64,000 nt of DNA. It comes from Halichondria panicea (lineage: Eukaryota; Porifera; Demospongiae; Suberitida; Halichondriidae). The notes below the pieces were generated by a model. The model saw only the letters and a program-made list of their open reading frames with translations, searched no databases and was not told the origin of the DNA. Every line of letters begins with the position of its first letter. The first letter of the stretch is position 1. The DNA lies in the NCBI RefSeq assembly GCF_963675165.1, contig NC_087385.1, forward strand, positions 2,046,501 through 2,110,500, read 5' to 3'. The position numbers were made by a program, and so were the translations under genes. Below, piece after piece: positions 39,887 to 60,386 of this stretch.

Positions 39887-40564
39887 TAGTCTCGAGGCCA
39901 GACTCCTCCTGGGAGAGAGAGTCTGGCAAACATGGTTTTCAGACAGTCAAAAGTGGGCGTGGCGGAAATGGGCGTGGTGACGATGCTAAAACTGGCTGGC
40001 TATTAGGCCACTCCAAGTGATACTCTGGTTTCTGGTCCACCGCCCGCATCAGATTTTATTCTTGGATTTCTATCTCATTATTGGATTTCTATCTCATTAT
40101 TTCTACTACGCATGCGCAGAATGGTCCATGTGGTACAAAATAGTGTGATAATGATATTCATTTGCAAAATAATGAGGTGAAATTGATAATGACATAATGA
40201 GAAAAGCCGCCCGCCCGCATGCAATTAGAAAAACTTCAGGACCAGAAACCAGAGTGTCACTTGGAGTGGCCTTGTCTCTACTCCTATACAGATTTAGTGA
40301 GATTTAAAAGATTCTCTGTACTTGAAATAACATTTTTTTAGTTGATGTATACAGGAATTTAAGTTTGCCATTGCCTACTGGCATAGTTTTAAAAATGACA
40401 AAGGTCAAGTACTATCAACCGCCTCTGTGAAGTGGAATCATGTGACAGTTTAATTCTTGCGAATCTGATTGGAGATGTCAAATTTTGACACTGAACCGAC
40501 TCTAAATGCCAGACCCTCTCCCTGGCACATGTCAGATCACGTGCAAGGGAGTGGGGCCAGACTA
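39887..40564. mobile_element. 678-bp internally deleted derivative of the P-type transposon
   Basis: Begins TAGTCTCGAGGCCAGACTC and ends GGGGCCAGACTA, the same ends as the 7.6-kb element at 50722. CTGGTCTCT flanks both sides (39878-39886, 40565-40573). About 45 bp match the big element's left end; the rest matches the right-hand part around 56643-56950 and its terminal block, so the middle with the transposase is missing. The junction falls near a shared CAAAC, the kind of microhomology seen in deleted P elements. Confidence 0.82.
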
Positions 40565-40569
40565 CTGGT

Positions 40570-40578
40570 CTCTATTGC
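40570..40578 (+). repeat. Left 9-bp target duplication of the 18.8-kb unit
   Basis: CTCTATTGC, directly abutting the GGGTTG end. It partly overlaps the right duplication of the 678-bp element. The matching copy is at 59344-59352. Confidence 0.85.
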
Positions 40579-41620
40579 GGGTTGTTATAAAACAGGGAAT
40601 GAGAAAATAATGAGGAAATGAGAAATAAGAAATGAGGAAATGAGGAAATAAGAAATAGGAAATGAGGAAATGAAGAAATAAGAAATAGAATAATAATAAT
40701 ATATTTATGGTTACGATCATCACCATGGCATTAATTTTCATCACAATAATTATGACATTATTATAATAATTATTATTATATAGATGCACAAAAGTGATAT
40801 CAGCCAAGAAGCTAGTAGGTGACTAAGTATTTAGTTATCAAATATATAATTATATAGTGGCACCTCCACACAGTACAGGTTGTCGGACACATTGTAAGAA
40901 TTAAATTTTACCATCGCTTCAGATGGCACAGTGAGCTTTCTTCATTAAAGGTAGCATCAGCTTTCACTAGGCATTGCTTGTGAGAATGGTAATGGGAATT
41001 GCTTTCTTCACCCTGTAGCAAGATTGGATATGATACCAGTACAGTGTACTAAATGTCATTAGACTACTTCCTGCAGCTTTACGACAGGACTGGCAGATCA
41101 TTAGAATTTGCTTGGTTTGACAAACAGTTTTGGAGGTTTCTTTGCTGTTACTTACATGTAGATGTTGACATTGAGTCCAGTCCATTGACTATCACTTGCC
41201 CACCGGATTGTGAAATCAGTGAATGTATTGCCAGTATAGCCACGCATAGGTAAATTGTTTGAGACTGTGGGACTGTAGGACAGTACATGTAAGTACCGTT
41301 ACGAAGGTAGATCTGATGTCTGAACCATGCCAGTCGTACATGGCACACAAGTAGATAGAGGTAGAGAGTGTCACACCGTGTACCAGAGGAACATAAGTTC
41401 TGTATGGTCCAGGAGACTTGTCACCAGGAGGTACGTACCTGTAGCACAGTAGATGTTAGCTTCGTCTTCAGACTTGCTCTGCCCATAGATATGCTCTGCC
41501 TAACAGCTCATTTCTCGTTCTCATTTCTTCATTTCCTCATTTCCTATTTCTTATTTCCTCATTTCCTCATTTCCTCATTTCTCATTTCCTCATTTCTCAT
41601 TCCCTGTTTTATAACAACCC
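40579..41620. mobile_element. Left 1.04-kb inverted arm of the composite unit
   Basis: Begins GGGTTGTTATAAAACAGGG, followed by about 100 bp of AAATGAGG/AAATAAG subterminal repeats, an ATAATAATAATAT tract, a unique core and the mirror-image repeats at the far end, so the arm is itself an element with inverted ends. It is in inverted orientation relative to the arm at 58310, with only scattered differences. Confidence 0.85.
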
Positions 41621-44093
41621 GCTATAAGGGGCGTATCAAAGTAAAACCATGTGTGCATGAAGCGAGCAGTGAAGCAAAAGAGGCCAGAGAGTTTACCGCA
41701 CACGGCCATATTTAATCATTTCCGCCTCGAGTGCCCAGGGCACGCCCCTTTTATAGTCAGCATGCTCGTTTAATCCACAAATTAGTTAGTGCTGTCACAT
41801 GATCTCCAGCCAATCAGCTTATCTGAAAGTAGTCAGGTGACCATGGATTAAATAACTTAATCCACACTTTAAGTTGGTTTGTTAACCCTTTCCTTGCCAT
41901 TCGTGAAATCTGGAACAGGAGCGTCTTTAGGTCGATCAATTAGTGTGGATCCGGCCTCACCACGCCTCCAAGTCATTCTATTAGTCTAGATCCGGCTAGC
42001 AATTCTAGCTGGGACTCCCAGTTCTAGCTCCTTTTGTTTAGCGTGTCAGAGACTGGGAGAAGATGATTGGCACTCCCTGGCTCCTTTGGATGTACAGCTG
42101 TCCAGATCCCTAGAACATACCCTCCATTCTGACGAGTTATCAGTGCATAGGGTGCTTACTAGATTCTTGCCAGCCAGTACAGTTCAAGCTACACACAGCA
42201 CCGCTCAACTATTCTCTACCCCATTATCTAGCTAAATCTGGTCCAACTAGACAGCAGACACAGCTAGTTAATTCAGTAAAGCCAGGGGTAGCCCTACTTC
42301 TACGGTTGTTCAGTACCCACGGTAACAATTCCTCTGGGCTGGGCTAACTAGTTGAGCCACGCCTCCCAATTCTCAAGGCTAGGTACATGTCTCTGTCTAG
42401 CTGCTTCTTCAGCTTCTTGCTCAGTTTTGTGGCTTAGAGAAAGGCCAGCTACTCAGGGGGAAGAGTCCAGATGAAAGTCTGGCAGCCAGGTGACGTCCAA
42501 ACGGTCAGTTATTCTTTCCACCAACTTTTTAATCTAGTCTAGTCCTGCTTGCACTGCTACTACTACTGCTGCCTACTGCTGCTACTCTTCCTAGCTAGTC
42601 AAAGGTTTCTTTTTTTTTTTTTTTTTTTTTATAACTACATATGCACAAAGAGACATCAAAGCTTACATCAAAGGACACAGATTTTTAGCCTACTTGACTG
42701 ATAAGGCGGTTACCTAGACTACAGTTTGTTTGTCAGGGAGGAGCTCACATACAACTTCATCTAATTCATCATAACGATTCCTTACCCATTGTTGTAATTT
42801 CTACAACAGATTGCCAAGGAAAGAGATAATACACACTTTTTATCAAACAATCATAATACAAGCAGATTGAATCTGAATGTCATCATAATTATAATAATAA
42901 TACAAGTAGATTGAATATGTACACAAGCAAAGCTGAAAAGTATTAGAAAGTTGAATGTTATTGTTTCGACTTGTTTCATATGTAGTAAGTGTACCGAATT
43001 GCTGACTTGACCATAGCATCGCTTTTTCGTCTGAAGAAATAGGCTCAGCTTGCTTCGAAGATGTACATACCTAGTACCTGTACCTAGTACCTAAGCCAGA
43101 TCCATATAATCGTTTCATCAAAGGTGCTTCGAATATCATAGCTTAGCAAACCAGATACTCATTGCCATATAGTTTGCGCACAAAGTTTCCCATCCAGTAA
43201 GCCAGATCAGCTGGAGGTATATCCAGTAGTGGGATCAGGACTGTTGGTCAGCAGCAGAAGTAAGGTGAGAACATGCCCAGTCAGTCCATATAGCTTTAGA
43301 TCGTATCTCCTTCTCCTTTGCATCAGTTACTGGATCTACAAACCTTGCTATTACGTCTAGCTAGCTAGCTAGCCACCAGCAACTGTAGCTACAGGGATTT
43401 GAGGAGTTCTTGCAACTGTAATGTCGAGAGCAGAAGTACCTGTCACGTGAACAGTTACGTAATTACGGCTCATTTCGCGCTCGGGCGGCTGTCGCCGCCA
43501 GTCTAGCTTTTTGCTCTGGCTCTGCATATACATGTAATTATCTGCAAGCCTTTGCACCACAGCTAAAGCTATCCTTGAGCCTAATCGTGAGCTACTACTA
43601 TTAGTCTGTCACACAAACTGTGTATCCAGCTGGAGCTAGCCTAAAAGAGATTTTACTGAGACTAGTGATACACTTTCAACAGCTTACGGGCAAGCTGGGG
43701 CAAGTAGTAGCTCACAAAATGATTAGAATCTCAAGGATAGCTTCAGCTGACAACCTGCTGTGGTGTAAAGCCTTTACCAAAGGCTCTTAGCTTTCTGATG
43801 TAAGTCGATGTTTTCCCAGTTTAATTAATTAAATGTGTGTGAAAACACACAACTGCACTGTCAATCCCATGCAACCTGTATACTAATGCACTTCCGCTTA
43901 TTGAGGAAATTGGGGGTGTGTTTTCAATTAAAATTCTGTGAAAGAAATCAAGTTCTGTTTTCATGTGAGTTTAATAGTTAAGTTGGGACCTAGCCATAGA
44001 TGCTCTAACTGGAGAAGTCTGTGTGATACATCTGATCTACTAAGTGTCTAGTATAATTATTGCATATTACTCACTGTCCTCACTCTTGCACAT
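41621..44093. other. Repeat-derived flank inside the unit
   Basis: No gene. Around 42120-42275 the sequence is the inverse complement of 57945-58095, and 43392-43850 is a copy of the 786-bp element at 56959. A run of 21 T lies at 42610. These shared inverted stretches might be independent insertions or decayed extensions of the arms. Confidence 0.6.
43392..43850 (-). mobile_element. Partial copy of the CAGGGATTTGAGGAG element
   Basis: CAGGGATTTGAGGAGTTCTT at the left end matches both ends of the fuller element at 56959-57744; the internal GTGAGCTACTACT and CACTTTCAACAGCTTAC blocks also match. The far end is not recognisable. Confidence 0.7.
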
Positions 44094-47000
44094 ATGCAGA
44101 CAATGTTGAAAGTTGTTCGCTCCTTTCTTGGTCGACCACCAGTTGAACCACCATTTGAACCACCACCTCGTAGTAGTCCATTTTCTACTGCAGCTGGCGG
44201 ACGCCATTACCTGTGGAGGGGGTATGGTCCAGGACGAGGGTCTAACGTCATTGCTGTGTGGGATCCAAGCACTGAGCTGTGGAACCTCCTGCCCACCTCT
44301 GGACCTCTACCCCCTGGAGAGTGGGGTGGTTGCTCTGTTTGTGTAGGTCATTGCCTGTACACCTTTGGTGGTTATGATGAGTCTTCCTACTACAATGACA
44401 TGAGCAAGCTTGATCTGGACACTCTCCAGTGGACCAAAGTTCAAACTTCTGGTAGTCAACCTATGAAAAAGCATGGTTGTGGACTTGTCCATGTGAATGA
44501 AAGAACTTTGTGCTGCTTTGGAGGACTCGGTATTAAGGGTCCCACACAACCAGGATCAACATTCACCAAGAGTGAAGCGGTTAGTGGAAGTGGACGAACA
44601 AATGAGTTCCATTTCTTTGACACACAAAATGGTAAGTTTGGTCAACGTGCGCATTCGCTGTATGCATAGGAAACCATGTACCAATCAATAGGATGTGTAA
44701 CATATCCCTCATCCCCACTTCCAGGTGTCTGGTCGTCCCCTGAGCTCAGAGGAGAGAGACCTCCTCCCTGTGATGACTTCACCTTCACCATGATGGACCA
44801 GCACAGGGCAGTCTTCTTTGGAGGGTTCCAATCTGACCGTAGGGTCAATGATGTCTACCTGTTTGACTTCAGGACCATGGTGAGTTGGAATGGGTGCTGC
44901 CACATTGAAATGCACAATACTGTGTGCATGTTCACTGTGTGTAGGAGGTCACTAAGGTGAAGCCAGTACTGGAAGAGCCATGGCCAGTGGAGAGGTTAGG
45001 CCATGCTGCCTGTTGTCTCAACTATGGCCAGGACCACCCTCAACTAATGGTGTACGGAGGAGTGGGTAATGGCATCAAGCCACTGGGGGACATGTGGATA
45101 CTTGATGTTGACACTGGCAAGTGGACAGAGGTGAGTCTTGTCTTATTATGCCTCGGTGTGCATGCGCAAGCGAGGTATACGGTTTTGTGCGTGTCTGTTT
45201 GTCTGCTTAAGGATCAATTAACTGCAGTTTCTAGTATTCGTGGATTTTTAAAATAATGCTTCGTTCTCGAGTTATCAGTGTTATGCCTAGTTTTGTTCAC
45301 TGGAATGCTTTGAAGCCTTTCAGAAGCGTGCGCGTATAGCCAAACTTGTCCAGGGAGTGTTGCTACTCCACTTAGTACATTTCGATGTTAAAGCTTCTTT
45401 GTCGTATAAAAGCGAGCAAAAGCCATGAACTTGCATGTTGGCTAGCTGTACACGCGATCTTTATTCTTTATTAGTGATCCTTTACCGGTCTCTGTTAAAA
45501 GTAGAATTGTAGCTTCTTTTTTATTATTGTATAACTGAACACTCCTCTAGATCTATTTATTCATGTCAGCAGCCGAGGGTTAGCACTTCAGTGCTCTAGT
45601 GTTATGTAGCTTTGGCACATCCACCGAGGCATCAGCACCTGCGGTGCTTTCATTATAAACTGTTCGTTTTATCGTACAGTGCGAAATTTTTGAGGTGCTT
45701 ATTTTTCGTGTTTTGAAGGGTTAATTAGCAATCCTCTAAGCCAGGAAAAAATTAGCTAAGGGAAGACGCATTGACCAAATAGCGCAAAATTTATTGTTTG
45801 TAAAGGCACTTCCATAAAAGTTAAGTGCTTCGAAATTTTCGCACTATGCGGTAATTAAAATCAGGAGCACATTACAGAAGGAGCGTCTTACCTCGGGAAT
45901 CGCATCTCGTGCAAGTTTGCAAAGCATGGCCTTATATGCAAAACTGCTAAGTGGGTGATAATCATCTGCGGGCGAGTGCTAATTGAGCTGACGGTGCACT
46001 TTTACCAAGCATGTAAGTCAATAAAAATGAAAAGCTACAGCTAGCTAGTTAGCTATAGGCCTGGTAGTAAGCTCTCTCTTCTAAGAACCCCATGCAGTAA
46101 GACACCCTACTGCAAAAACAAAACGCCTAGTGTAATAGTCTAGGTCTAGCAAACTTTCTCTTCAAAGTAATTGGATATGCTCCTCTTCTGTACCTCACCA
46201 ATGATGTATACCAACATCCATCAAAGACCAACAAAATCAGTTCATAATGATATTCAGAGGCTGACCGCGGTCTGTAATTTATGTACACAGTACTTGCACA
46301 CTTTTCTTATAAGTTTATGTTTAAGTTTATGTTTAGGAAAACACACGAGATGCGATTTCCGAACCCATGCAGAGTTAGACGCTCCTTCTGCAATGTGCTC
46401 CTGTTAAAATCTAGGAGGCATTATATAACACACATAAAAAAATTTAATATGTACCAGCAGGAGTGTATGAAGAGGAGTGTCCAACTGTAGCAGTTGTAGT
46501 GTAAACCATGTTGTACTATGGTTGCACCAAAGATCAAAGGCTTCAGTTGTAGTTTATACTACTTATACAAACTGTCTGACCACAAGCCACGGTATATGGC
46601 TGTTATACCCTAGTGTATAACAGCCATATACCGTGGCTTGTGGTCAGACTCTAGCAAAAAATAATCAATTGAATATAGAGAGAATTCTTCTTATAAATCA
46701 ACTATAGTCAACTCAGTTAACATGAGAAGAGCCAAAATTGACATCAATTACACAGTTAGATGTAGTTTCAAAAAGCGAGGAAAATGTAGGAGAGCTTTGT
46801 GAGACTTTTACATTTGTTACTTTCTCGACATTCGTTACAGTCTGATCATAGACTACATTGCTGGGATCTGTGAGAATGGTTGAGACAGCCAAATGTTGCT
46901 CGTCTGAAGTGTGTTTATATGTCCTCAAACACTTCAGAGACTGGTGTCCAGTACGCTGTTGAATTATCTTTTCTGGTACATTAGCGCTGTACAAACATGT

Positions 47001-50000
47001 AGCACCTGTTGCACGCAAGCTGTGATTGGTTTTGTCGTCAATCCCGACTTGTTTGAACATTTCCTTGACCATTTTACTGAGTTTATTCTCTCCAATCTGT
47101 GCATTGCTAAACCATGGAGCTGCTGGATTATCAGGAACCTTGTCAAGCGGTCGTAGGTAAAACAAATCTTTCTCAATTGCCTTCGTTGGCAACTTCCCTA
47201 AATATAGATCAAGTAGCTTCACATGACATCTATCACCCGGTGTAGCAAAAACAGGAACAACCTTGTTCTCAACACGGATATCTCGAAAGCCACCATTTCT
47301 ATTTTTAGAACCATTCTCTGTATATATATATAGCGATCTGGATTAGTCAACCGAGTAAATTGGGACGGCTTCAAAAACCTATGCTCGTTGCCACCACGAA
47401 GGCAAAACACTTTGCCATTATAATAGAAGACAGCTCGAAACAAGGAATTTGGGGTATGAACACCTATATAATACCTTTTTCCCATAGCAGATTTTATTCG
47501 TCTTTCGAAATAATGGCAGCATGTTTTACTGCTGCTCCTACACCATCGATTTTCAGAGTGCGAAAGTAACTGTCCGTTGTATGATGGAGTTCTTTGAATT
47601 CAGGTTCTTTATTATCAATCAAATTGGGAGCTCTTGCATCAATAGATCGTATGTACCTATTAATACCACACAATAGCTGGTACAACGTTTTAGCTGGGTA
47701 CTTGGTACCATTCTTTTGACGTGTTTCAACCAAAAATCTTGATAGCCAATAGGACAGAAGAGCATTTTTGTCCATTGGACTGTCAAGTAAGTCTGTGGGG
47801 CATTGTTCATCAGAGAAAACTTTGTTCCTTTCATCTCTCCACTCATTAAAATTGTTCACGGCCCAGTTAGTAGACTTACTAGTGTTCTTGGGGACGTAGC
47901 CTTTCGCCATTTCATCATAGTTAGTATCAGAGGCTAGTGAAAAAGCACCCTTGAAACGGCTGACAGAAGGAGTTTTGTTCTCTTTATCTTCATCTTCGCA
48001 CTTAGTCTTAGATCAACTCTGACGTTTCCTTTTTCGAGAAAGCTGCTTTAGTTCAACTTCATCCATATCCTCTAGATAACGATAATCTGGATCAAGATAT
48101 TCGTCCATTCCTAAACTGAATCTTCGAGAAACTGGTTTCACTCTGATATTCTTAGAAGAGATGGAGATATAAGTTCACTGTCTTGAAGGATCTTAGACAA
48201 ACATGTACTAGTATCTTCAAAATCGCTTGCTTGAACACCCATTCACTTTCGCTGATTTTTTAAAAATCTTTGCATAGCTATAGCAACAGTGACGTCAAAC
48301 AGTAGTTATAAGCATATTCATTGAAGAAGCATGACAGGAAGTAGCTAAACATAGTAGTACAGTTCTAAACATAGTACAAGCCAGTTAAACTATGGCCTCT
48401 CGTGGTATATTTGATTTCAAATATACCACTCGAGGCCATTGTTTAACTATAACTTACGGTATGAGTATGTCATACCACGTCACTATCAGACCGCATCTCA
48501 AGTGGGTGCGTAGGTGTAGTGGTTAATTAGTTAAAAATGATATCAGCACAAGGTCTGCTGTGGTTTGTACCTCCAGCCTACATTTAATTTTATTCATGGC
48601 TAACAGTTTACACAACTACAAGTATTAGTGACGGATTCAGTCCGAGATATAGAATGGAATGTGCGTGGGAGTCGCATGCATACTCCTCTTCATACACTCC
48701 TGGTATCAGTAGCTGGATAATTATAGTTATACAAAATTATCTATGTTGATATTTCTAATAATCCAACAAAACATTATTTTTTGTGCCTCCAGGTGACACC
48801 TCCTAAGTCAATGACACCGCGTTACTACCACTCCATCACTGCCACCAGTCTGGGACCAGGACTCACTGATGACGTCCTCGTGTTTGGAGGCCATTTGTAT
48901 ACCTATGAAAATGTTGCTGACACCACCATACTGAGATTTGGTAAGTAGCTAATAGTACCTACCGTTATGGTGGATGTAGCATTCCTCCTATTCAAATGAC
49001 TATTTATCATGCAACCATGGCAACTATTGTCTGATAGACAAGTGCACACAATACATGTGTCAATGACTCTAAATGCATAATTATAATTATTCTGTATATA
49101 ATACTGTTACATTTTCTCCCCTACAGAGGCGACCGGACCTACAGCGTCTGTTGCTGGACTCTCGGCTGGGAAGTGGGCTCTCGTAGATGTGGCCCACAAC
49201 AACACTAGAGGCTCCGCCCAGCGACTGAGTAAAAAGAGGATCAGACAAGCAACTGCTCGTGCCTCATCAGTCAGTGAGACCAGCGACCACTCCTCTCAAG
49301 ACCGGGTGAAGGCTCTGGAACAACAGTTACGAGCAGCACAGCAGAGAGAGCACGACACTCAACGTCGCCACCAACTACAGTTGCAAGAGAAGGATCGTGA
49401 ATTAACTGAGGCCAACCATCGTCATGGAGATGCGGAGGAAAGAGCACAGCTGGCAGAGCAAAGAGAGCAAGCTACACAATTACTTTTGCAAGAAAAATAT
49501 CGTGAATTGGCTGAGGCCAACCGTTACCATGGAGATGCTGAGACGAGAAACCAAGCACTGATTGCTGAAATGGACCGAATTCAAGAAGGTCTCCGAAGAT
49601 CTGACAGGAGAGCCCAGCTGGCAGAGGAGCGAGCAGATGGTCTGGAAACTCAGTGGGTGGTCCATCGCGAGGAGATCACAATGACAGAGAGACAGCTCGG
49701 TTGTGGAGGATGGGGGGTCGTCAAAGTGGCCAAGTTCCGAGGAATCAAGGTGGCAGCCAAGACACTGTACGAGCAGCTCAATTCCGACTATTACCGACAC
49801 GTGTTTATTCGTGAGATGAACATGGCGGCTCGTCTGCGACACCCACATCTGGTCCAGTTCATCGGAGCCACGCTGGAGGGGAAGATGATCATCCTGACAG
49901 AGCTCATGGCCACCAGTCTGAGGAGAGTGCTGGAGGGAGGTCGTATCTCACGTGAACACATCCTCTCCATCTCTGTGCAGGTCTGTCAAGCCCTCAACTA

Positions 50001-50397
50001 TCTCCACCTCATGCAGCCAGACCCAGTGATCCATCGTGACATCAGCAGTGCAAACATCCTCCTGAACCCTCTACCCAATGGTCACTGGAGGGCAAAGGTC
50101 ACAGACTACGGCTCGGTGAACACCCTGCGAGCATTGGCGACAGAGAATCCTGGTAATCCAGTGTACGCTGCCCCTGAGGCAATAACCCCATCCCTCCAAT
50201 CAACCAAGATGGACATGTTCAGTCTGGGAGTGCTCCTGATTGAGATGTGTTCTGGCCAGTTTCCGAGTGATGACGGACGTGAGCGCTTACTCCTTACCAT
50301 CCAAGACCGTCAGTTCTTTGACATCATCAGTCGATGTATCGATAGAGAGAGAGACAATCGACCAACCGCTCAACAACTGTTGAATGAACTACATTAG
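44094..50397 (+). CDS. Kelch-repeat / coiled-coil / protein kinase fusion
   Basis: Exons 44094-44631, 44725-44879, 44945-45130, 48793-48940 and 49127-50397 join in phase to about 765 residues. Kelch repeats: CLYTFGGYDESSYYNDMSKL, CCFGGLGIKG, AVFFGGFQSDRRVNDVYLFD, MVYGGVGNGIKPLGDMWILD and VLVFGGHLYTYENVADTTI. Then about 150 residues of charged coiled coil with a duplicated EKDRELTEANHRHGDAE unit. The kinase has LGCGGWGVVKVAKFRGIKVA, the VAAK lysine, HRDISSANILL, DYG in place of DFG, and YAAPE with DMFSLGVLLIEM, of the tyrosine-kinase-like group. All catalytic residues are present, so activity is plausible. The start could be in an upstream exon (cacatatgcag precedes). The gene lies wholly inside the 18.8-kb unit. 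AATAAA is at 50410. Confidence 0.88.
45143..45655 (+). mobile_element. Second full copy of the Helentron-like repeat
   Basis: Head TGCCTCGGTGTGCATGCGCA starts about 17 bp after the exon 3 donor of the kinase gene; the tail CACCGAGGCATCAGCACC is followed by the hairpin and CTTTCATTA. The middle has diverged from the 33911 copy. Same orientation as the host gene. Confidence 0.7.
45656..46573. other. Intron sequence without recognised content
   Basis: Part of the 3.7-kb third intron of the kinase gene, between the Helentron-like repeat and the 46574 hairpin. No supported feature. Confidence 0.5.
46574..46649. repeat. 76-bp perfect hairpin
   Basis: 35-bp arms starting GTCTGACCACAAGCCACGG around the loop CCTAGT. 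It lies 63 bp beyond the 3' end of the Crypton-type gene. No target duplication seen. Confidence 0.85.
46713..48242 (-). mobile_element. Decayed Crypton-type tyrosine recombinase
   Basis: Minus-strand coding remains in the third intron of the kinase gene. In order: an acidic/basic N-terminal segment (DEYLDPDYRYLEDMDEVELK, KRKRQ), a DNA-binding-like part (NFNEWRDERNKVF, LSYWLSRFLVETRQKNG, LYQLLCGINRYIRS), GKVFCLRGGNEHRFLKPSQF, then the catalytic end with HSLRATGATCLYSA, RTGHQSLKCLRTYKHT. The His-Leu-Arg, Gly-His and Tyr residues of tyrosine recombinases are there. This matches the DUF3504 class behind vertebrate ZMYM/QRICH1/KCTD1-type exaptations. The frame is interrupted at several points (stops and shifts), so it is inactive. 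Confidence 0.8.
48383..48448. repeat. 66-bp hairpin upstream of the Crypton remnant
   Basis: Arms AGTTAAACTATGGCCTCTCG... and its near-perfect inverse complement meet at TTGATTTCAA. Together with the hairpin at 46574 it brackets the Crypton gene. Confidence 0.8.
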
Positions 50398-50416
50398 AAC
50401 TGTGTTAAAAATAAAT

Positions 50417-50602
50417 AAATGAAAGCACCGCAGGTGCTGATGCCTTGATCGGTGGAGATGCCAAAGCTACATCACATAAAGCCACTAATAGCTTAATTTT
50501 ATACACATGATGAACATTTTTTAATTTGCATGCTGCATGCAAACTCAAATAGTGGGTAATGATTGACCATGATTTTTGTTAAAAACGATCGATGCCAAAG
50601 TT
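50417..50602 (-). mobile_element. 3' fragment of the Helentron-like repeat
   Basis: Inverse-oriented tail: AATGAAAGCACCGCAGGTGC, a variant of the CACCGAGGCA repeat, and a stretch matching 34300-34460 (GACCATGATTTTTGTTAAAA). It starts 20 bp after the kinase stop codon. Confidence 0.7.
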
Positions 50603-50895
50603 TAATGGTTACCACAGCGGCAGAGCCTAGTCTCGAATACCAGCCGGTTCTCATTGTAAGCGTGGGCGGGAGAGAACCGTCTGGTGACTCTGATCTGGTG
50701 ACTCAGGGCTAGCCTCGATTCTAGTCTCGAGGCCAGACTCCTCCCGGGGGAGAGAGTCTGGCAAACCATAGATAGAAGAGGGAGAGGGATAGGAAACAGC
50801 AAGATTTCTAGATTTATCCGCGCTACGCGTGGGTGGTGCTTAGTGGATTTGGCTGAGTCAGCATGGTGCTCTAAAATTAGAAACACTGAGAGAAC

Positions 50896-51893
50896 ATGGC
50901 CACCACAAGTACCAGTACCAGTGTGGATAAGAGTGTTGCTACAGGTTTTGTAAAGAATGCCATTCACTGTGTTGGAGAAGACAAGTTGTTGAAGTGTTTA
51001 GAATAGAAATAAAAGAGATGGAGCAAGAAATTCTAGTTGCTGGAGATATGGAACAGACAGTCTTCGAAGAATTTTGTACCCAACTAACTTCCCTATTGAA
51101 GTGCTTGATTGTCTCTACTGACAAAATTAAACTATATTCTACAAGAAGAACAAAATGCTGGACATATTTTCATGCAGCACAGAATGACTCTATTCCTCAA
51201 CTGTGGAGGACTGTTTATACAGCGCTGAGACTCAATAGACGAGGAAAGCACTACTTATTCACGCAATCAGTAACTAGAAAATTGTTTGAACAATTAATGA
51301 CTGCAGCATTTAGTGATGTATTAATAAAAGAAAAACCTCGAGAGAGAGAAGAAATTATGTTTACAGCAGATGAGCTGAAAATACTGAGGTATGCTAGTGG
51401 ATTTGTACCTTACAAGCTAATCAAAAGGTATAAAACCAAATCAGGAGAAAAATTCTATCATTTTAAGGACTGTCTTCAAGGTATGGCTGTGAATAGCGAC
51501 GAAAATCAGGATTTTCTCGAGTATACCAAGTCTTGGATTGATAAAGTCAACAGGGGAGGTCTATTCTCTGTGAACAATGAAACATTTAACTTGTTTATCG
51601 CTGTTGAAACATCTGTTCGTCGATTACTTCCTAATCACTTAATTGGTAGTAAGTCTTCTAGTTTACAGGTATTAGCTCAAACGGTTATTGAGGAAATTGA
51701 TGTCCAATTTCATTGGTCTCTAATTACTCAAGAGTTGAGTGTTACTGAAGAAATTGAACTACTACAGGAACTAATACAACTATGGATTACGATTAGGGGA
51801 TTTTCTTTTGCCTCAAGTTGGTTGGAGTTGTATAAGGAGGCCACAAAGTCAAATGTTCAGAAATCAACTGGACTACGAAAACATTTGTCGTAG
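50896..51893 (+). CDS. Companion ORF of the P-type transposon
   Basis: Begins MATTSTSTSVDKSVATGFVK at a Kozak-like ATG; the frame shifts near 51000 and the rest (from 50994) is open for 300 codons. Motifs: QLWRTVYTALRLNRRGKHY, FTADELKILRYASGFVPYKL, WIDKVNRGGLFSVNNETF and, at the end, LWITIRGFSFASSWLELYKE followed by QKSTGLRKHLS. From memory, proteins ending this way are common as uncharacterised, repeat-linked genes in corals and other cnidarians. Convergent with the transposase. Function unknown; a DNA-binding or assembly helper is conceivable. The apparent frame break suggests this copy is not intact. Confidence 0.7.
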
Positions 51894-51988
51894 GTATATA
51901 CTATAATTATTGTAGCGTAAGTAATATTTGATGTTGCCATAATTCTGAATTATGTGATCAAAAGTTAAATGTGCAATTATGATATATA

Positions 51989-54900
51989 CTATTTGTGTTT
52001 CTTTTTTCTCTTTGGTAAAGGGGTTTGTACACTCTCTTCAATTGCAGATTGTTCATCGATCTTAGAAAATCTTTTCCTACAGTTGCCACGTACTGGGTTT
52101 AAGGCCATTGATCCCTGTATCCTCAATGAAGCAGCGTTAGTCAGGCACTGTTTAACATTAGGATTCTCATTTCGGCCTCCCCTTTGACGTTGCTTCCCGA
52201 AATAATTTTCTAAGGGGTCTTGTGACAATTTCTCACTTAGAAGGTATAACCCTGGATGCTTCGATAGAAGAAATGTAGCCATTTCCACAAATGAGTTCAC
52301 TGCATTTATATAGACAATTATGTTAACATGATTATCTCTATAATAAAGGGTATAATTATACCAGTTTACCTGTTATTTTTATGCCCTCCAATGTCACTGC
52401 ACTTAGCAGCATCTTTTGCTTGATATGGGGTTTGATATTTGTGTCGATGGACGATTCCCATTCATTTAAGTAACCTAGCAACTCATCCTTCAGCCACTAA
52501 TGAAGAAATATACATGTACATAAAATAATTATAAGATCACAACAATACCATGCACAGCCTGCACAAAAACTTACCTTTAGTCGTACATCGTCGACACTAG
52601 TATATGGCTTTAGACTGTCCTTCCTCTTTCTTTTCCACTCTGTCTTATTTCTGACATTAAAGACAGTCAAAAAAGTGGTCAAAATTTCGAATAAACTTTT
52701 CTGTTTCTGCAGTACTAGGGTCCCCATGTTCTGCAAAAGCCTCAGCCACTGATTTGCTTAAAACCTATTGAGCAAACAATCAATGAAAAATTATTTTTTA
52801 CAGAGAAACACCAGAGGAGGCTGGAACCACTGACCTTAGATAATTAAGGCCACTAATTCTTGCAGACTACTTCAAGCTTAGTTTTTACTGTCTATATAAG
52901 TTTAAAAGTTTTTTCTGGGGGAGTCAAATTTTATTTTTGTCAATTTTGCTCAGAAGCAGAGATACAAGTCCCAAAAGCCAGCTGTGTGGCGTCCTCGAGA
53001 ACAAGCCGCTCATGATGTCGAGGCTAGTACAAGAGCAAGACTTTTGATTGTATCTCTGCTTCTGAGTAAAATTGACGAAAATAAAATTGGACTCCCCCTG
53101 CAAAATAACGTTTTAAACTTCTTACAGACACTAAAAACTAGGCTTGAAGTAGTCTGAAAGAGAGTTTGGAGAACTCCATTAGTGACCTTAATTAGCTAAG
53201 GTCAGGTGGTTCCAGCCTCCTCTGAACCCAATTATAGGACCACCTGTAACTGTGTACTAATTAAAAATAAATTCCACTCACTTGAGCAGCTAAATCAACC
53301 CTCATTCTAGAGAAAGAAGTTAATCGAACATGTTCCAGCTTTAGTTTAGGAACGAAAGACAATGCTGATGAAGTACATAATAAGGATGCTCTCTGGTGGA
53401 GATCGGTAAGATGCTTCCATTCGATAGTTTTCTTGTTTATCTATAATTATACAGAAATGGACATCATAATAAACAGGTTTGTGATGACTAACTTACTGCC
53501 ATTAGCCGTGTGCCGTTGAATCCAGAATGAGACCAGCAGTTTCTCGTTGTCTTAATTAAATGTGGCACATCTGAAATAAAATAAAGCGAACGATTCTCAT
53601 CAGGATCAGCATATGGATTGTGTGTCTTGTATGTAAGTCCACTTTCATCACTACCGTTCATTCTAAAGAACTTCCTATTTGGACTCGCTCCGTCAGCGGT
53701 GACACTTATAACCTTAAAGCCAATTGCCTCCAACTGTCTAATTGCTTCCCATACAATAGGAAAGAGCATGTCTGCCACAATTCCCTTACGGGTAGGGAAA
53801 TGTGCATATGGAAAGTTCAACTTGAAGAACAAGCCGCGAACAAGGAGAACCATAATATGGTCTGCAACAGGAGGATGTTTTACACTTTCATCGTCAGTAC
53901 ATTCTTTAATGCTCTCTACTCGAGCTAATGTGTCGTTCATATCCCCCAGTTGCGTGAAACCAATGATTTGGCTGGTATTCTTATCGTACACAAGATCTTC
54001 TTTAATTTTCATCTCATCAATAATTAAGGAAACATACCTTCGTGACTCTGGCAATGAGTCAATTCCTGATTGTGTACGAAGCTGGCTGTTTAATTCTTCA
54101 CTAAACCCGACTTCAGATTTGTAAAAGTGAGTAAAATCACGAAGTGTTCGCTCCGATGGAAGTACAATAAATCCAGATGTGCGTAACGTGTGGTAGGTAA
54201 CACCAGAAAGTAATTGCAGGTTTAAACACCACTTTATCATTAAGGGATGCCAACGATTTTGCCTTCCCTTCTTTCCAGACGAAGCTTTTAACTGTTCTTC
54301 CCAAAATAATCTAGCGAATGTTCCTTCTGGATACCTTTCCTGTATTTTTTTTGAGTTGCTATTCAAAATGTGAACCATATCTTGGTTTAGTTCTTCATCA
54401 ACTTCTTCACCTTTTTTCTCATTCAATTTCTTAATGTAATTTTCTAGTTTTGATATCTTGTATTTTGAGGAAGTGACTGCTTTTCTTAGCCTACACATCT
54501 TTTCTTTTTTCTCAGGTGTGCGTAGGAACCTCTCATTAGTATGATTGTGAATTACCCTGGATTTCAACGTGGCTCTCTTGATCGAGCTGTGGTATATGGC
54601 CCTGAGTGCAGCCCGATAAGATTTGCACGAAGTGCATTTTTGGACATTACAAATTATTTCGCATGTCGTCGTTCGTACTGTTTTGTTAAATATATCACCA
54701 TTTAAAGTTACGGAAGCATAGTCATCAAGTTGTGCTCTAATTTCCCCATGAGCCTTTCCCAACATTATTTTGTTTTTCTTCTGTTCAATCATGGAAACAA
54801 AATGAGAGTCAGGATGACCACAGCATACATGAGCACTGTCAAGTACAAGGAGCAGATCTTGAAGGCCGGCTGACGAGATAACTGGCGGAAATGATTGTAA

Positions 54901-55341
54901 TAAACAGCATCTTTTTGGATCGACAATGTGGTTATGTACATGTACTTGCCATGTACGGTCTGATTGAACAACCAAAGTGTGTGTAATAACAGCTGGAGTT
55001 TTGCTGCTGGATGCTTCACTAGAAATCTTACACAATGTGATCTTTTCAACAGGTTGAGTAGTTACATTAACCCAATTTTTACTTGGCAAAGTCAAGGCAC
55101 CAAGAACAGTTGCAATAGATTCGTTATGACTTGTGGATGGAGGTTGACTTGTGGATGGAGATTGACTTGTGGATAGAGGTTGACTGGTGGATGGAGATTG
55201 ACTTGTGGATGGAGGTTGACTGGTGGATGGAGATTGACTTGTGGATGGAGACTTACTGATGGATGGAGGCGTGGCGGCTTTTTGTAGACGTTTTAATTTT
55301 GATTTATCCTTTCTGCGATAAAGTCCTTTTGATCGTGGCAT
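51989..55341 (-). CDS. P-element/THAP9-type transposase
   Basis: Five exons on the minus strand: 55341-53497, 53440-53282, one ending near 52740-52570, one near 52492-52374, and 52300-51989. Recognised by the RNase-H-like core VISVTADGASPNRKFF and LYFISDVPHLIKTTRNCW, the exon 2 helix LTSFSRMRVDLAAQ, and the C-terminal DPLENYFGKQRQRGGRNENP, all P-element/THAP9 hallmarks. The N-terminus is basic, then a tandem SPSTSQ/PPSTSQ linker; no clear THAP zinc finger is visible, though CKSC- and CCGH-type cysteines occur. The tail KRKKKHK is a nuclear signal. In exon 3 the reading frame changes around FFDCL/NVRNKTEW, so this copy is probably inactive. Intron 2 holds a MITE. Confidence 0.85.
52813..53223. 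mobile_element. Fold-back MITE with AGAGGAGG ends in the transposase gene
   Basis: Long imperfect inverted repeat: left AGAGGAGGCTGGAACCAC, right its inverse complement, with GACTACTTCAAGC and ATCTCTGCTTCTGAG blocks also mirrored. Nearly the whole 411 bp folds back. It shares the AGAGGAGG end with the element at 57820. No clear target duplication. Confidence 0.75.
55125..55265 (-). repeat. Coding minisatellite (SPSTSQ repeats)
   Basis: 18-bp units (TTGACTTGTGGATGGAGG on the plus strand) repeated about eight times in the first transposase exon, encoding alternating SPSTSQ and PPSTSQ. Confidence 0.85.
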
Positions 55342-55910
55342 ATCTATAATATAACATACACCATCATGTTAATAATGGCCTAAGTCCATGCAATACTATA
55401 TACTCTTCATGAAATAACACTATGAGGTTGTATGAATAAGCTTTTCTTCTGATATACGTTCCCAACAGCAAGTATACGTTACACAATTGCACCTGAAATA
55501 GCGACATGTGCAAGGTACAAACTGTGCATTTGAAGCTTGCAGTCCACACTTGTTCATACAGTTACTTATCTGGTGCATTAACTGTTCTATTTAGTACTAA
55601 TAGTAGCTAGTAATGTGTACCAAAGCAGTAAAAATAACTTACTTTATCATTTCTTCGGCAAAAACTTAATTCTTTTTTCTCAATATACTTGCAGGTGGTT
55701 GCATTGCATTAACATGGAGCTTCATGACGTCTTAAGAAGTGTATGTAATGGCTAGAAATACAACTACAGTCTATAAAAAGATTCCCGGGCAAATCCCGGC
55801 AATTATTATTGCGTAGCACGCGGCACAAAAGTCATTGAAATGATCACGTGATCGTCAACGTTTCCTATCCCTCTAACTCTTCAATCTATGGGCAAACAGA
55901 GTCACTTTTC

Positions 55911-56633
55911 TAGACTGGAAACCACGCCCCTTTCTTTAGGGAAAGAGACTGGCCAGGTGACTATCAACGACTCGTCCCAACGGAATGCTTGGAATGTAGT
56001 GTGTGCATGAATGCGTGGGAGATATCTAAACCACAACATTGCACACTAAGCTATTATAATTGATTTTATGTGAGATTAATATTTTTAGCTGTACAGTTGC
56101 AGTATAAATTTTATGTCTACTTAGCTAGCTGTTTGGATATAAGTTGTCTATCAGTACTTCTCCAATGAAGCAATTCTAAAGTTGCTGGCTGGCTACAAGG
56201 CCACTGCAAAAATAACAGACAAAAGTAGCAGAGATGCAGAGATATATTTGTCTCTCTGCCAACTGGTTTATGGAAAGTCCCTTTGCTGGCCCTATTGCCA
56301 GCAACATTTGAGTTTCTATTACAGCGGTGTCATTGCCACAGACAGGACAAGAACTAGGTACATCCAGGTGACAGCTAGCTCCAGACTTGGACATAGTTTT
56401 GCAGCAGTTGACTTGTGATTGAAATAGGTGGCTGAGCTAGCTAGCTTGCTAGAGTACAGATTACTGTACTTAGCTACAGTAGATCTAGCCAAAGTATACT
56501 AAACCGCAACACTGGTGACCACACCCTTTTCCCTGAACCACTTCCGCAAAATTCAGTACGCAATGAAGACGGAGTTGTTGATAGTCACCTGGCCAGTCTC
56601 TTTCCCTAAAGAAAGGGGCGTGGTTCCAGTCTA
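55911..56633. mobile_element. 723-bp MITE with TAGACTGG ends and 9-bp duplication
   Basis: About 60-bp inverted ends starting TAGACTGGAAACCACGCC (one extra A at the left). TCACTTTTC flanks both sides (55902-55910 and 56634-56642). Nested in the right part of the P-type transposon. Again TAG...CTA ends with a 9-bp duplication. Confidence 0.85.
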
Positions 56634-56958
56634 TCACTTTTCTTGGTTTTCAGACAGTCAAAAATGGGCGTGGCGGAAATGGGCGTGGTGACGATGCTAA
56701 AACTGGTTGGCTATTATCTCTACTCCCGTACAGATTTAGTGAGATTTGAAAGATTTTCTGTACTTGAAATAACATTTTTAGTTGATGTATACCGGAATTT
56801 AAGTTAGCCATTGCCTACTGGCATAGTTTTAAAAATGACAAAGGTCAAGTACTATCAACCTCCTCTGTGAAGTGGAATCATGTGACAGTTTATTGCATTC
56901 TTGCGAATCTGATTGGAGATTTCAAATTTTGACATCTGAACCAAGAAAAGTGACTCTA

Positions 56959-57744
56959 CAGGGATTTGAGGAGTTCTTGCAACTGTAATGTCGAGAGCGG
57001 AAGTACCTGTCACCTCCCCCAGGACCCAAGGGCACTACATGACACCCTCTACAATCTCCTGCAAGGCCTTGTCTGGCTGAAAGCTGCCCATGCGCAAGAG
57101 TGGCTCTTGCTCTTCATCAAAGATCTAAGGCAAACCCGCGCTGATCTCCTTCTCACAAGCACATTGGTTTAAAGCTCCACCCTCTTACTGCGTGTTATAA
57201 TAATACCCATTTTCAATATTCTTTTTCGTCTGCCCAATGGGCTACTCTTCATTATTTGGAGGCTACAAAGAAGAAGAAGAACCTTGGTAACAAGTTTGAA
57301 TTTTGGCTCATTCCAAACCAATTTTTCTCCAATAGAGCCTATTCCTTTGATAAAGGCTTTGCACCACAGAAGGTTGTCAGCTGAAGCTATCCTTGAGATT
57401 CTAATCGTTTTGTGAGCTACTACTTGCCCCAGCCTGACTGTAAGCTGTTGAAAGTGTATCACTAGTCTCAGCTAGCTCCAGCTAGCTGGATACACAGTTT
57501 GTGTGACAGACTAATAGTAGTAGCTCACGATTTTGGGCTCAAGGATAGCTTTAGCTGTGGTGCAAAGGCTTGCAGATATATAGAGCAAAGCCTCCTGTAT
57601 AGGTCGATTTTTTCCCAAAATAAACAGGCCTAAAGGCTTTATTGGAGAAAAATTGGTTTGTAATGAGCCATAATTACGTAACTGTTCACGTGACAGGTAC
57701 TTCCGCTCTCGACATTACAGTTGCAAGAACTCCTCAAATCCCTG
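56959..57744. mobile_element. 786-bp fold-back element with CAGGGATTTGAGGAG ends
   Basis: Ends CAGGGATTTGAGGAGTTCTT and its inverse complement, about 58 bp long, flanked by TA on each side. The interior also folds on itself (AGCTAGCTCCAGCTAGCTGG). Partial copy at 43392. Nested in the P-type transposon. Confidence 0.78.
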
Positions 57745-57819
57745 TACATGTAAATGCCAGACCCTCTCCCTGGCACATGTCAGATCACGTGCAAGGGAGT
57801 GGTCGATCTGGGGCCAGAC

Positions 57820-58283
57820 CAGAGGAGGTTGGCCACGCGTCATCAATCATGTGACATTCCTAAGGTCTCTGCTCACGTTACCATAGATACCGAATAACTG
57901 TAATAAAAAAGCTATGGATACTTTTGCTTTGCTGACTTGTAACACCGGACTAGCTGTGTCTGTTGTCTGGCTGGACCAAGATTAGCTTGACTATAGGGTA
58001 GAGTATAGTTCAGCGGTGCTGTATGCAGCTTGCATTGTACTGGCTGGCAAGAATCTAGTAAACACTGTATGCACTGATAACTCGCCAGAATAGAGGGGAT
58101 CGGTGGGGATCGAGTTAGTTAATGAAAGCTTTATACCAAAAGAAGCCAGAGAGGCACATAAAGTTTGCCTTCAGTCTCTAATGACCGTGCAACATCAGCT
58201 AGAAGTTTACATAGAACTCATTGTCAATTTTTGTGCCAGCTCAGCAAAAAAAGTGGTGCACGTGATCGTGTCCAACCTCCTCT
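57820..58283. mobile_element. 464-bp MITE nested in the right end of the P-type transposon
   Basis: Ends CAGAGGAGGTTGG and CCAACCTCCTCT; GGGGCCAGAC flanks both sides (57810-57819, 58284-58293), splitting the transposon's own terminal block. The interior is homologous to 42120-42275. Confidence 0.78.
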
Positions 58284-58309
58284 GGGGCCAGACTACCTCG
58301 ATTCCAGGC

Positions 58310-59343
58310 GGGTTGTTATAAAACAGGGAATGAGAAATGAGGAAATGAGAAATGAGGAAATAAGAAATAGGAAATGAGGAAATGAAGAAATGAGAAAGAG
58401 AAATGAGGTGTTAGGCAGAGCATATCTATGGGCAGAGCAAGTCTGAAGACGAAGCTAACATCTACTGAGCTACAGGTACGTACCTCCTGGTGACAAGTCT
58501 CCTGGTGCTCTGCCACCATACAGAACTTATGTTCCTCTGGTACACGGTGTGACACTCTCTACCTCTATCTACTTGTGTGCCATGTACGACTGGCATGGTT
58601 CAGACATCAGATCTACCTACGTAACGGTACTTACATGTACTGTCCTACAGTCCCACAGTCTCAAACAATTTACCTATGCGTGGCTATACTGGCAATACAT
58701 TCACTGATTTCACAATCCGGTGGGCAAGTGATAGTCAATGGACTGGACTCAATGTCAACATCTATACATGTAAGTAACAGCAAAGAAACCTCCAAAACTG
58801 TTTGTCAAACCAAGCAAATTCTAATGATCTGCCATTCCTGTCGTAAAGCTGCAGGAAGTAATGACATTAGTACACTGTACTGGTGTCATATCCAATCTCG
58901 CTACAGGGTGAAGAAAGCAATTCCCATTACCATTCTCACAAGCAATGCCTATAGTGAAAGCTGATGCTACCTTTAATGAAGAAAGCTCACTGTGCCATCT
59001 GAAGCAATGGTAAAATTTAATTCTTACAATGTGTCCGACAACCTGTACTGTGTGGAGGTGCCACTATAATTATATATTTGACAACTAAATACTTAGTCAC
59101 CTACTAGCTTCTTGGCTGATATCAGTCATTACTTTTGTGCATCTATATAATAATTATTATTATAACAATGTCATAATTATTGTGATGAAAATTAATGCCA
59201 TGGTGATGATCGTAACCATAAATATATTATTATTATTCTATTTCTCATTTCTTCATTTCCTCATTTCCTATTTCTTATTTCCTCATTTCCTCATTTCTTA
59301 TTTCTCATTTCCTCATTTCTCATTCCCTGTTTTATAACAACCC
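58310..59343. mobile_element. Right 1.03-kb inverted arm of the composite unit
   Basis: Inverse counterpart of 40579-41620. It contains a frame on the plus strand (58575-58964) whose middle, SLISQSGGQVIVNGLDSMST, runs towards a gtaagt donor at 58771, so the core could derive from a captured exon. The outer end CAACCC abuts CTCTATTGC. Confidence 0.85.
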
Positions 59344-59352
59344 CTCTATTGC
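59344..59352 (+). repeat. Right 9-bp target duplication of the 18.8-kb unit
   Basis: CTCTATTGC, identical to 40570-40578, directly after the CAACCC end and 149 bp before the GOT2 start codon. Confidence 0.85.
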
Positions 59353-59501: not shown

Positions 59502-60386
59502 ATGGCAATGAGGGGATTAATGCATGTGTCAAAATTGCTACCAGCCACAGCCAGAGTCAGAGTCAGGTAAGTAACAATAATGGAGCTGCAAGCTTTTTAA
59601 ATAGTGTAGCCAAATACTAACTATAATATAATTTATATATGATTTTACAATTGGGTGTCCTATGATTTGTACACCCTATTTATAAGTGTAGTTATCTGCC
59701 TTGGTGGCATTGCTAGCCCATCATAATTATTGATTCCAAACTCGTTGCAGATTGTACTGTACCAAGGGTTACTACCATACACTGATACAGCTAGCTACAA
59801 TAGATGCTATAGTCTATGCCACCTAGTCAGATATTAAATTATCAAAATTTCTGTCAGTGTATATTGCCAGGTGTAATGCTAGTGAAATTTTATTGATACT
59901 CACATTATGAACCTCATCACCCACCTACGATGCATGTAGCTCATTTTGGTCTGGAGTTGAAACTGGGCCACCTGACGCCATCTTTGGCTTGGTCGAGGCT
60001 CACAAGAAAGATCCTCGCCCGAACAAAGTAAGTCTGGCTATTGGAGCATACCGGGACGACCAGGGAAAGCCGTGGGTCCTGCCCACCGTTCGTAAGGCGG
60101 AGCAACGTATCGTTGATAAGAATCTGGACAAAGAATATGCTGGAATTATGGGATACGAATCATTTTGTAAGGAAGCCTACAAATTGGCATTTGGAGAAGA
60201 TGATAACTTCAAGAACAATTCTGTGAGCAGTGTACTTTTTGATAGGCGATTTACTTGCATGATACGATACAATGACATGCCGAATATGTACGGGGGACAC
60301 ATTTAATTATTATTTGCTTCCTCCAGTATGTGACGACTCAAACCGTTTCTGGCACGGGTGCTCTACGTTTGGCTGGCATGTTCCTG
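59502..60386 (+). CDS. GOT2: Mitochondrial aspartate aminotransferase, first three exons
   Basis: PLP enzyme of the malate-aspartate shuttle. Exons 59502-59566, 59940-60222 and 60327-60386 join in phase. The first encodes a basic presequence (MAMRGLMHVSKLLPATARVR). The second starts FWSGVETGPPDAIFGLVEAH and contains LAIGAYRDDQGKPWVLPTVR and NLDKEYAGIMGYESF, close to human GOT2. The third, VTTQTVSGTGALRLAGMFL, covers the cofactor-phosphate loop. A good donor follows, but no further exon is visible before the minus-strand gene at 60920; the PLP lysine and the rest would lie beyond 64 kb or are missing. The 18.8-kb unit ends 149 bp upstream, so its arrival may have altered the promoter. Confidence 0.92.

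Follow-up and report, generated by a model that had tools for sequence, protein, structure and literature searches.

A candidate composite transposon of MULE type around a Kelch-kinase gene in the sponge Halichondria panicea

Transposons usually move themselves or gene fragments. In maize, Huang and Dooner are said to have described, in 2008, the macrotransposition of linked Ac/Ds elements that lie in direct orientation, and in the bacterial transposon Tn10 the arms are inverted and the outer ends of the same type are used. Bacterial composite transposons consist of two element copies with cargo between them (passages of PMC6431247). For the P elements of Anopheles, a macrotransposition in which neighbouring elements and the intervening DNA move en bloc has been proposed (PMC1562414, in part), and in Drosophila melanogaster visible chromosome segments were mobilised between two foldback elements as Ising's TE (passages of PMC6431247). 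Host sequence can also be held between the terminal inverted repeats (TIRs) of Pack-TIRs and of Pack-MULEs, where MULE stands for Mutator-like element (passages of PMC8277862 and PMC6431247), and the Tm1 Mutator/foldback family of root-knot nematodes has non-autonomous members of ~1 kb with internally repetitive TIRs and 9-bp duplications (passages of PMC3169594). Here we analyse a stretch of 64,000 nucleotides of the sponge Halichondria panicea (the window; C9:2046501-2110500 in an assembly of 131 Mb and 39 contigs), in which two inverted MULE-type elements frame a block of DNA that carries an intron-bearing Kelch-kinase gene.

Our preferred reading, to which we assign a probability of about 0.74, is that the whole block was transposed by the outer ends of the two non-autonomous elements, i.e. 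by macrotransposition. It would resemble the maize Ac/Ds case and the proposed P-element case in that neighbouring elements move with the DNA between them. Unlike the directly oriented Ac/Ds elements the sponge arms are inverted, so that two ends of the same type would pair, and unlike both cases the sponge unit has MULE ends and a complete-looking host gene in an animal, and is a settled genomic copy rather than an observed event. Ising's TE is likewise an animal composite between two transposons; it extends over hundreds of kilobases and is framed by foldback elements rather than by this MULE family. Tm1 is, like the sponge arms, an animal MULE family with non-autonomous members of ~1 kb and 9-bp duplications, and the passages of PMC3169594 describe no pair of its members that frames a block of host DNA. 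Pack-MULEs and Pack-TIRs are single elements with inner filler, whereas in the sponge two whole elements frame 16.7 kb. Tn10 shares with the unit the two inverted copies of one element with cargo between; unlike such bacterial composite transposons, the sponge arms encode no transposase found by our scans. DNA movement between two transposons is thus known from maize and Drosophila and proposed for mosquito P elements, and the sponge locus would add a further variant of this known process, one in which the arms are inverted MULEs and the gene between them looks complete. We found no animal MULE composite of this kind in the open-access literature searched. An earlier note on this DNA, made from the sequence alone, had called such gene-carrying transposons rarely described in animals; rarity is a fair statement, and it does not amount to absence, since Ising's TE is a precedent (passages of PMC6431247).

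Two complete elements and one outer duplication

The unit spans positions 40570-59352 (18,783 bp including both 9-mers) and is bounded by the 9-bp sequence CTCTATTGC, which in a search of the whole window was found at 40570-40578 and 59344-59352 only, both times on the + strand. Directly inside these target-site copies lie two complete non-autonomous MULE-type elements, the left arm of 1042 bp (40579-41620, + strand) and the right arm of 1034 bp (58310-59343, - strand), each with what we call its position-1 end outward and with 16,689 bp between them. The arms are mutually inverted, align with 94.4% identity across 1064 columns (gaps counted) and differ by 16 substitutions at 1014 compared sites; GGGTTGTTATAAAACAGGG forms the first and the last bases of each. 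Their inner flanks, GCTATAAGG for the left arm and ATTCCAGGC for the right arm, match as own duplications at 1/9 and 3/9 positions, respectively. The alignment and these matches confirm the inverted 1.04-kb arms, the identical outer 9-mers and the unmatched inner flanks that the earlier note had reported. Each arm is a complete transposon with two terminal repeats, and the unit has the order element-cargo-element; it is not a single element with 1-kb terminal repeats. Because each arm has both of its own ends, the unit is not a Pack-MULE or Pack-TIR either, in which a single TIR element holds host sequence inside. Two copies of one element frame unrelated cargo, and a single target duplication stands at the outer ends only, which is the arrangement of a composite transposon.

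For most genome DNA searches the best 40 candidates were scored, and the counts given here and below are lower bounds. The arm-family search returned 122 matching stretches (best 40 of 76 candidates), from which we count roughly 45 copies, and the 19-bp arm end occurs at 81 places in the genome with at most 2 mismatches (reversed control pattern: 8). In 54 fetched stretches both ends were readable for 36 elements, the two window arms included. With at least 8 of 9 matching bases as the threshold, an own 9-bp duplication (8-9/9) was found for 24 of the 34 readable copies outside the window and for neither of the window arms, in agreement with the expectation that an independently inserted arm carries a duplication of its own. 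The ten copies that lack one by this strict count are L040, L043, L044, L045, L051, L052, L054 (a longer repeat at an offset) and L088, together with L039 and L077, in which, read by eye, the duplication is present if the mutated end is shifted by one base.

As a control for chance, the flanks of all 36 elements were compared for every pair in four arrangements (2520 comparisons). A 9/9 match was obtained three times: twice from the segmental duplication L062/L063, and once for the outer pair of the window arms, which is the pairing expected of a composite. No comparison reached 8/9 and five reached 7/9. These figures bear on the idea that the arms inserted separately at this locus, that inversion, deletion or gene conversion then scrambled their flanks and that the outer 9-bp match is due to chance. 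Loss of duplications does happen, as the ten copies without one indicate, and in Drosophila inverted copies of Galileo are known to recombine ectopically (passages of PMC2775673). Against this, had an inversion between the two arms taken place, the left outer flank should be the reverse complement of the inner flank on the right, which it is not, and not a single unrelated flank pair matched at 8 or 9 of 9 positions; we give the scrambling of flanks hardly any weight. An assembly error, by which two loci were joined via the 1-kb repeats, would be helped by the ~98-99% identity (substitutions) of the arms to several other copies; a misjoin would not create, at both outer tips, a 9-bp match of exactly the duplication length of the family, and we regard this as the least credible of the explanations considered.

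Exactly 13 bp separate each arm from one and the same motif, GGGGCCAGACTAC, with which a repeat that we call Y ends and which has the same orientation at the two arms (40553-40578 and 58284-58309). The 13 bp between the motif and the arms differ in sequence and therefore repeat Y does not account for the 9-bp match; the equal spacing perhaps reflects a target preference. The sole other element among the 36 that lies near an end of Y is L069, at 20 bp.

The assignment of the arms to the MULEs is based on their long TIRs (~110 bp at both ends), on the target duplication of ~9 bp in the family and on a predicted transposase between the same ends in a relative. This 6-kb relative (L040, C1:7809137-7815093) has the ends of the arms with one mismatch each, is ~82% identical to the arms over some three quarters of their sequence and has an own-duplication match of 1/9. 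Its 402-aa frame contains a MULE domain (PF10551; E 8.5e-22, 77.9 bits, cut-off 27.6) and ZSWIM1-3 RNaseH-like domains, and close copies of most of the frame are present on C6, at 98% and with one stop, and on C17, at 97% and free of stops. The search for a transposase linked to the arm ends, which the earlier note had proposed, was thus successful. Among the open frames of at least 120 aa in the unit itself no MULE transposase was found, and because the arms are without a transposase in these scans the enzyme would have to come in trans.

Several other end pairs in the genome resemble composites at first sight. The 13-kb pair at C9:1816720-1829692, of which 5 kb were read from each end, is a single element interrupted at positions 183-188 by nested sequence of ~12 kb, one frame of which looks retroelement-like, presumably; a perfect 9-bp duplication still flanks this element, and a more diverged family copy abuts it. 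Each of the longer end pairs L048, L052, L065 and L086 likewise belongs to one element that contains an insert or additional sequence inside. At C1:9187584-9196079 the two arms point the same way, and the second is flanked by a duplication of its own; the pairs L043/L044 and L062/L063, whose flanks are identical, are segmental duplications.

Ancestry of the arms and the interrupted repeat V

In a tree of the arm family with 31 rows, the left arm groups with L078 (C15:4589601-4590661, own duplication present) with support 100/99; 2 substitutions and six indels (1-15 bp) separate these two. The right arm falls outside this pair, with L056 as its nearest row. The arms were therefore not copied from one another, which rules out a simple inverted duplication; such a duplication would also have reversed the 9-mer. 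The alternative raised in the earlier note, a single arm split by a rearrangement, is likewise disfavoured, since the two arms are complete elements and neither is the closest relative of the other. Rare bases shared by the left arm and L078 stand at 182, 482-486, 726 and 868 (seven in all, with four in one group next to an indel), and between positions 182 and 868 the left arm does not appear to be chimaeric. Because the left arm is 2 substitutions away from L078 the transposition event was probably recent, so that an empty site may still segregate.

A family member has two distinguishable ends. In 7 of the 13 copies that were checked, identity between the two extends over exactly 44 bp before they diverge; in the remaining 6 they diverge earlier via point changes, small indels or a mutated tip. 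By this 44-bp comparison and the sequence further in, both outward ends of the unit are position-1 ends, and one resident element is therefore insufficient as their source unless a strand switch occurred within ~44 bp. This bears on the main rival to macrotransposition, in which a break in a solitary resident element, lying between two copies of CTCTATTGC, is repaired from a distant element-kinase-element locus. Such a homology-directed insertion yields the same outer duplication and the same unmatched inner flanks, and gap filling has been argued to make most single-copy Pack-TIRs in animal genomes (passages of PMC8277862). A solitary element, however, has one position-1 and one position-1042 end where the unit shows two position-1 ends, and the strand switch would be confined to roughly the outermost 44 bp. 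No chimaera is visible in the left arm in the interval 182-868, which leaves the outer 181 bp and the right arm as places for one, and the donor copy of the cargo that the repair would leave behind was not seen among the scored candidates. We consider the repair of a resident element clearly unlikely. It has in common with macrotransposition that the cargo would have arrived from elsewhere between two arms, and the two differ in the unoccupied allele that they lead one to expect.

The inner flank of the left arm gives an indication of where that arm had been before. It is the right part of a dispersed repeat, V; this part (41621-41774, + strand) begins with GCTATAAGG and was found at 21 other places with 83-100% identity (best 40 of 203 candidates). 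Three copies (L093-L095) continue leftward unbroken through AAGGTGCTACATGCAG, and in the fourth copy read (L096) the sequence on the left is another one. No match to the left half of V (AAGGTGCTACATGCAG and the next bases) was obtained within the window with up to 3 mismatches allowed. As the left arm lies inside V and the left half of V is missing beyond the arm, the present left outer junction was made later; it would have arisen after the first insertion of the left arm and exactly at the tip of the element, and a cut exactly there is what a transposase makes. By the 9-bp rule of the family GCTATAAGG would be the original target of the left arm, of which the other copy is missing.

Another V copy is interrupted by an element of ~8.2 kb with inverted ends GTAGGACCAGAAAG (L097/L098, C9:1866.2-1874.6 kb). 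Its insertion point lies a few bases from the V position of the left arm and shows, in the two ends that were read, a short duplication, GGCGTA or GGCGTAT.

The Kelch-kinase gene and the rest of the cargo

The main cargo is a Kelch-kinase gene at 44103-50397 on the + strand. Its predicted model has five exons (44103-44631, 44725-44879, 44945-45130, 48793-48940 and 49127-50397), a putative start codon, predicted introns that are all GT..AG and an open frame of 762 aa, in line with the complete multi-exon gene that had been claimed earlier. Five H. panicea proteins align with the predicted protein at 61-79%, starting at its residue 14-37 and reaching its end. Among the scored rows of the paralogue searches (best 40 of 75 and of 4105 candidates) the relatives lie mostly at C9:0.04-1.33 Mb, 0.76 Mb from the window copy at 2.09 Mb; this region is a large Kelch-kinase cluster with dozens of matches on both strands. 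Paralogues outside the cluster were scored at C16:3.90, C8:5.03, C9:1.80 and C9:4.16 Mb. Over almost the full kinase exon the closest scored paralogue has 90% identity, with up to 93% for parts of others, and the similarity ends near the exon borders; for these reasons the gene is much older than the arms, i.e. an old gene would have been moved and none newly made.

The paralogue identities also bear on a transposition of reversed ends with re-replication, of the type that gives composite insertions of Ac/Ds in maize, in which the block would be a joined copy of the flanks of a donor that stays in place. This predicts a near-identical second copy of the cargo, whereas the best kinase paralogue has the 90% just given, the region 50767-51960 has no other match among the scored places (best 40 of 114) and no left part of V was found without the right part. 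In this assembly, among the best candidates scored, the cargo does not duplicate donor flanks. The donor could have been lost by segregation; even so, we hold re-replication to be very unlikely.

The remaining cargo includes other transposons, as had been noticed before, namely recombinase pieces, P-like frames and nested short elements. To the left of the gene lies a repeat of ~950 bp (41882-42830, + strand) with 39 other scored copies that are 99-100% identical (best 40 of 815 candidates, with a query that held more than the repeat), which indicates a very recent burst; from the ~5-kb spacing of some copies it is perhaps a solo long terminal repeat. Intron 3 of the kinase gene holds pieces of a QRICH1/DUF3504 tyrosine-recombinase gene (46713-48012, - strand), which we take to be Crypton-like. 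To the right of the gene follow a 320-aa open frame without a Pfam match (50931-51893, + strand) and two transposase frames with TNP-like RNase H domains (51989-55368, - strand), presumably P-element/THAP9-like, with an imperfect palindrome of ~410 bp between them (52812-53224). The P-like and tyrosine-recombinase frames have the look of nested elements and may well be irrelevant to the unit. Two short elements without assigned strand lie further right: one with 57-bp inverted ends (56957-57746), of which a related piece is found inverted at 43390-43783, and one of 465 bp (57820-58284) with 13-bp inverted ends CAGAGGAGGTTGG and the 9-bp duplication GGGCCAGAC, perhaps of another MULE-type family. 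The arm copies L042b and L069 lie within 11 bp of an end motif similar to that of this 465-bp element.

Outside the unit, the start codon of an aspartate-aminotransferase-like gene lies ~150 bp to the right of the insertion target CTCTATTGC (ATG at 59502). The gene looks like an aminotransferase, and from its first exon we assume it to be the mitochondrial aspartate aminotransferase.

A possible course of events and its meaning

The transposition of the whole in a single event, which the earlier note had favoured, is supported by the duplications in 24 of 34 family members, the distinct ancestry of the arms and the shared type of end that they turn outward, the cut repeat V and the MULE transposase in the relative. 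The unit would thus work like a composite transposon ("macrotransposon"), and its history may be pictured as follows. Two non-autonomous Mutator-like elements would have inserted separately, in inverted orientation, on either side of the Kelch-kinase gene at another place, the left one within a copy of repeat V, at the target GCTATAAGG that the rule of the family suggests, and the right one at ATTCCAGGC, next to a Y copy. The two outermost ends, both of the same type, would then have been brought together by a MULE transposase encoded elsewhere in the genome, and the block of 18.77 kb would have been excised whole and inserted at CTCTATTGC, with a single duplication of the 9-bp target.

Several observations weigh against this course of events. 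The joined outer flanks matched the two sides of the window, and the left side also copies of repeat Y, and no row spanned the join, so that the empty site the earlier note had asked for was not found in this one assembly (best 40 of 86 candidates). A donor scar was not found either: two patterns gave 21 distinct places with the left part of V, none of them without the right part. The pattern at the V border gave 14 places, 12 of which adjoin a right-V row and two of which, on reading, also run into right V; the pattern further left gave 20 places (13 of the 14 plus 7 on C1, with right V 0.8-1.7 kb on). One right-V row, C13:3967595, had no left V in these pattern searches. The patterns would miss a longer deletion or more than 2 mismatches, and the loci of the kinase cluster were judged from search rows. 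Two places were considered as scars and rejected, C9:1874583, which on reading shows another inserted element and then right V, and C10:2710153, where the V copy continues in a shortened form. No second, near-identical copy of the cargo was found among the scored candidates in this assembly, and no further composite pair, as had also been suggested for search, among the 36 elements compared. To these come the ten family members without a duplication, L040 among them, the 9-bp length of the first target of the left arm, which is assumed because the other half of V is missing, and the four kinase paralogues outside the cluster, near which no arm is listed up to a distance of 15 kb (the element at C9:1816720 lies ~20 kb from the paralogue at C9:1.80 Mb); kinase dispersal therefore does not need the arms. 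The negative results on donor and empty site count against the composite model and are softened by the single assembly.

If macrotransposition is the correct reading, the unit would represent a direct, non-retroposed route for relocating an intron-bearing gene in an early-branching animal, and the ends of an animal MULE would act over 18.8 kb and as a pair of the same end. A wider picture, which we put forward as doubtful, is that a young MULE system of this sponge mobilises whole multi-exon genes via pairs of non-autonomous elements with ends of the same type; the unit would then be a segregating carrier that moved a kinase gene out of its cluster and pushed the upstream region of a metabolic gene 18.8 kb away.

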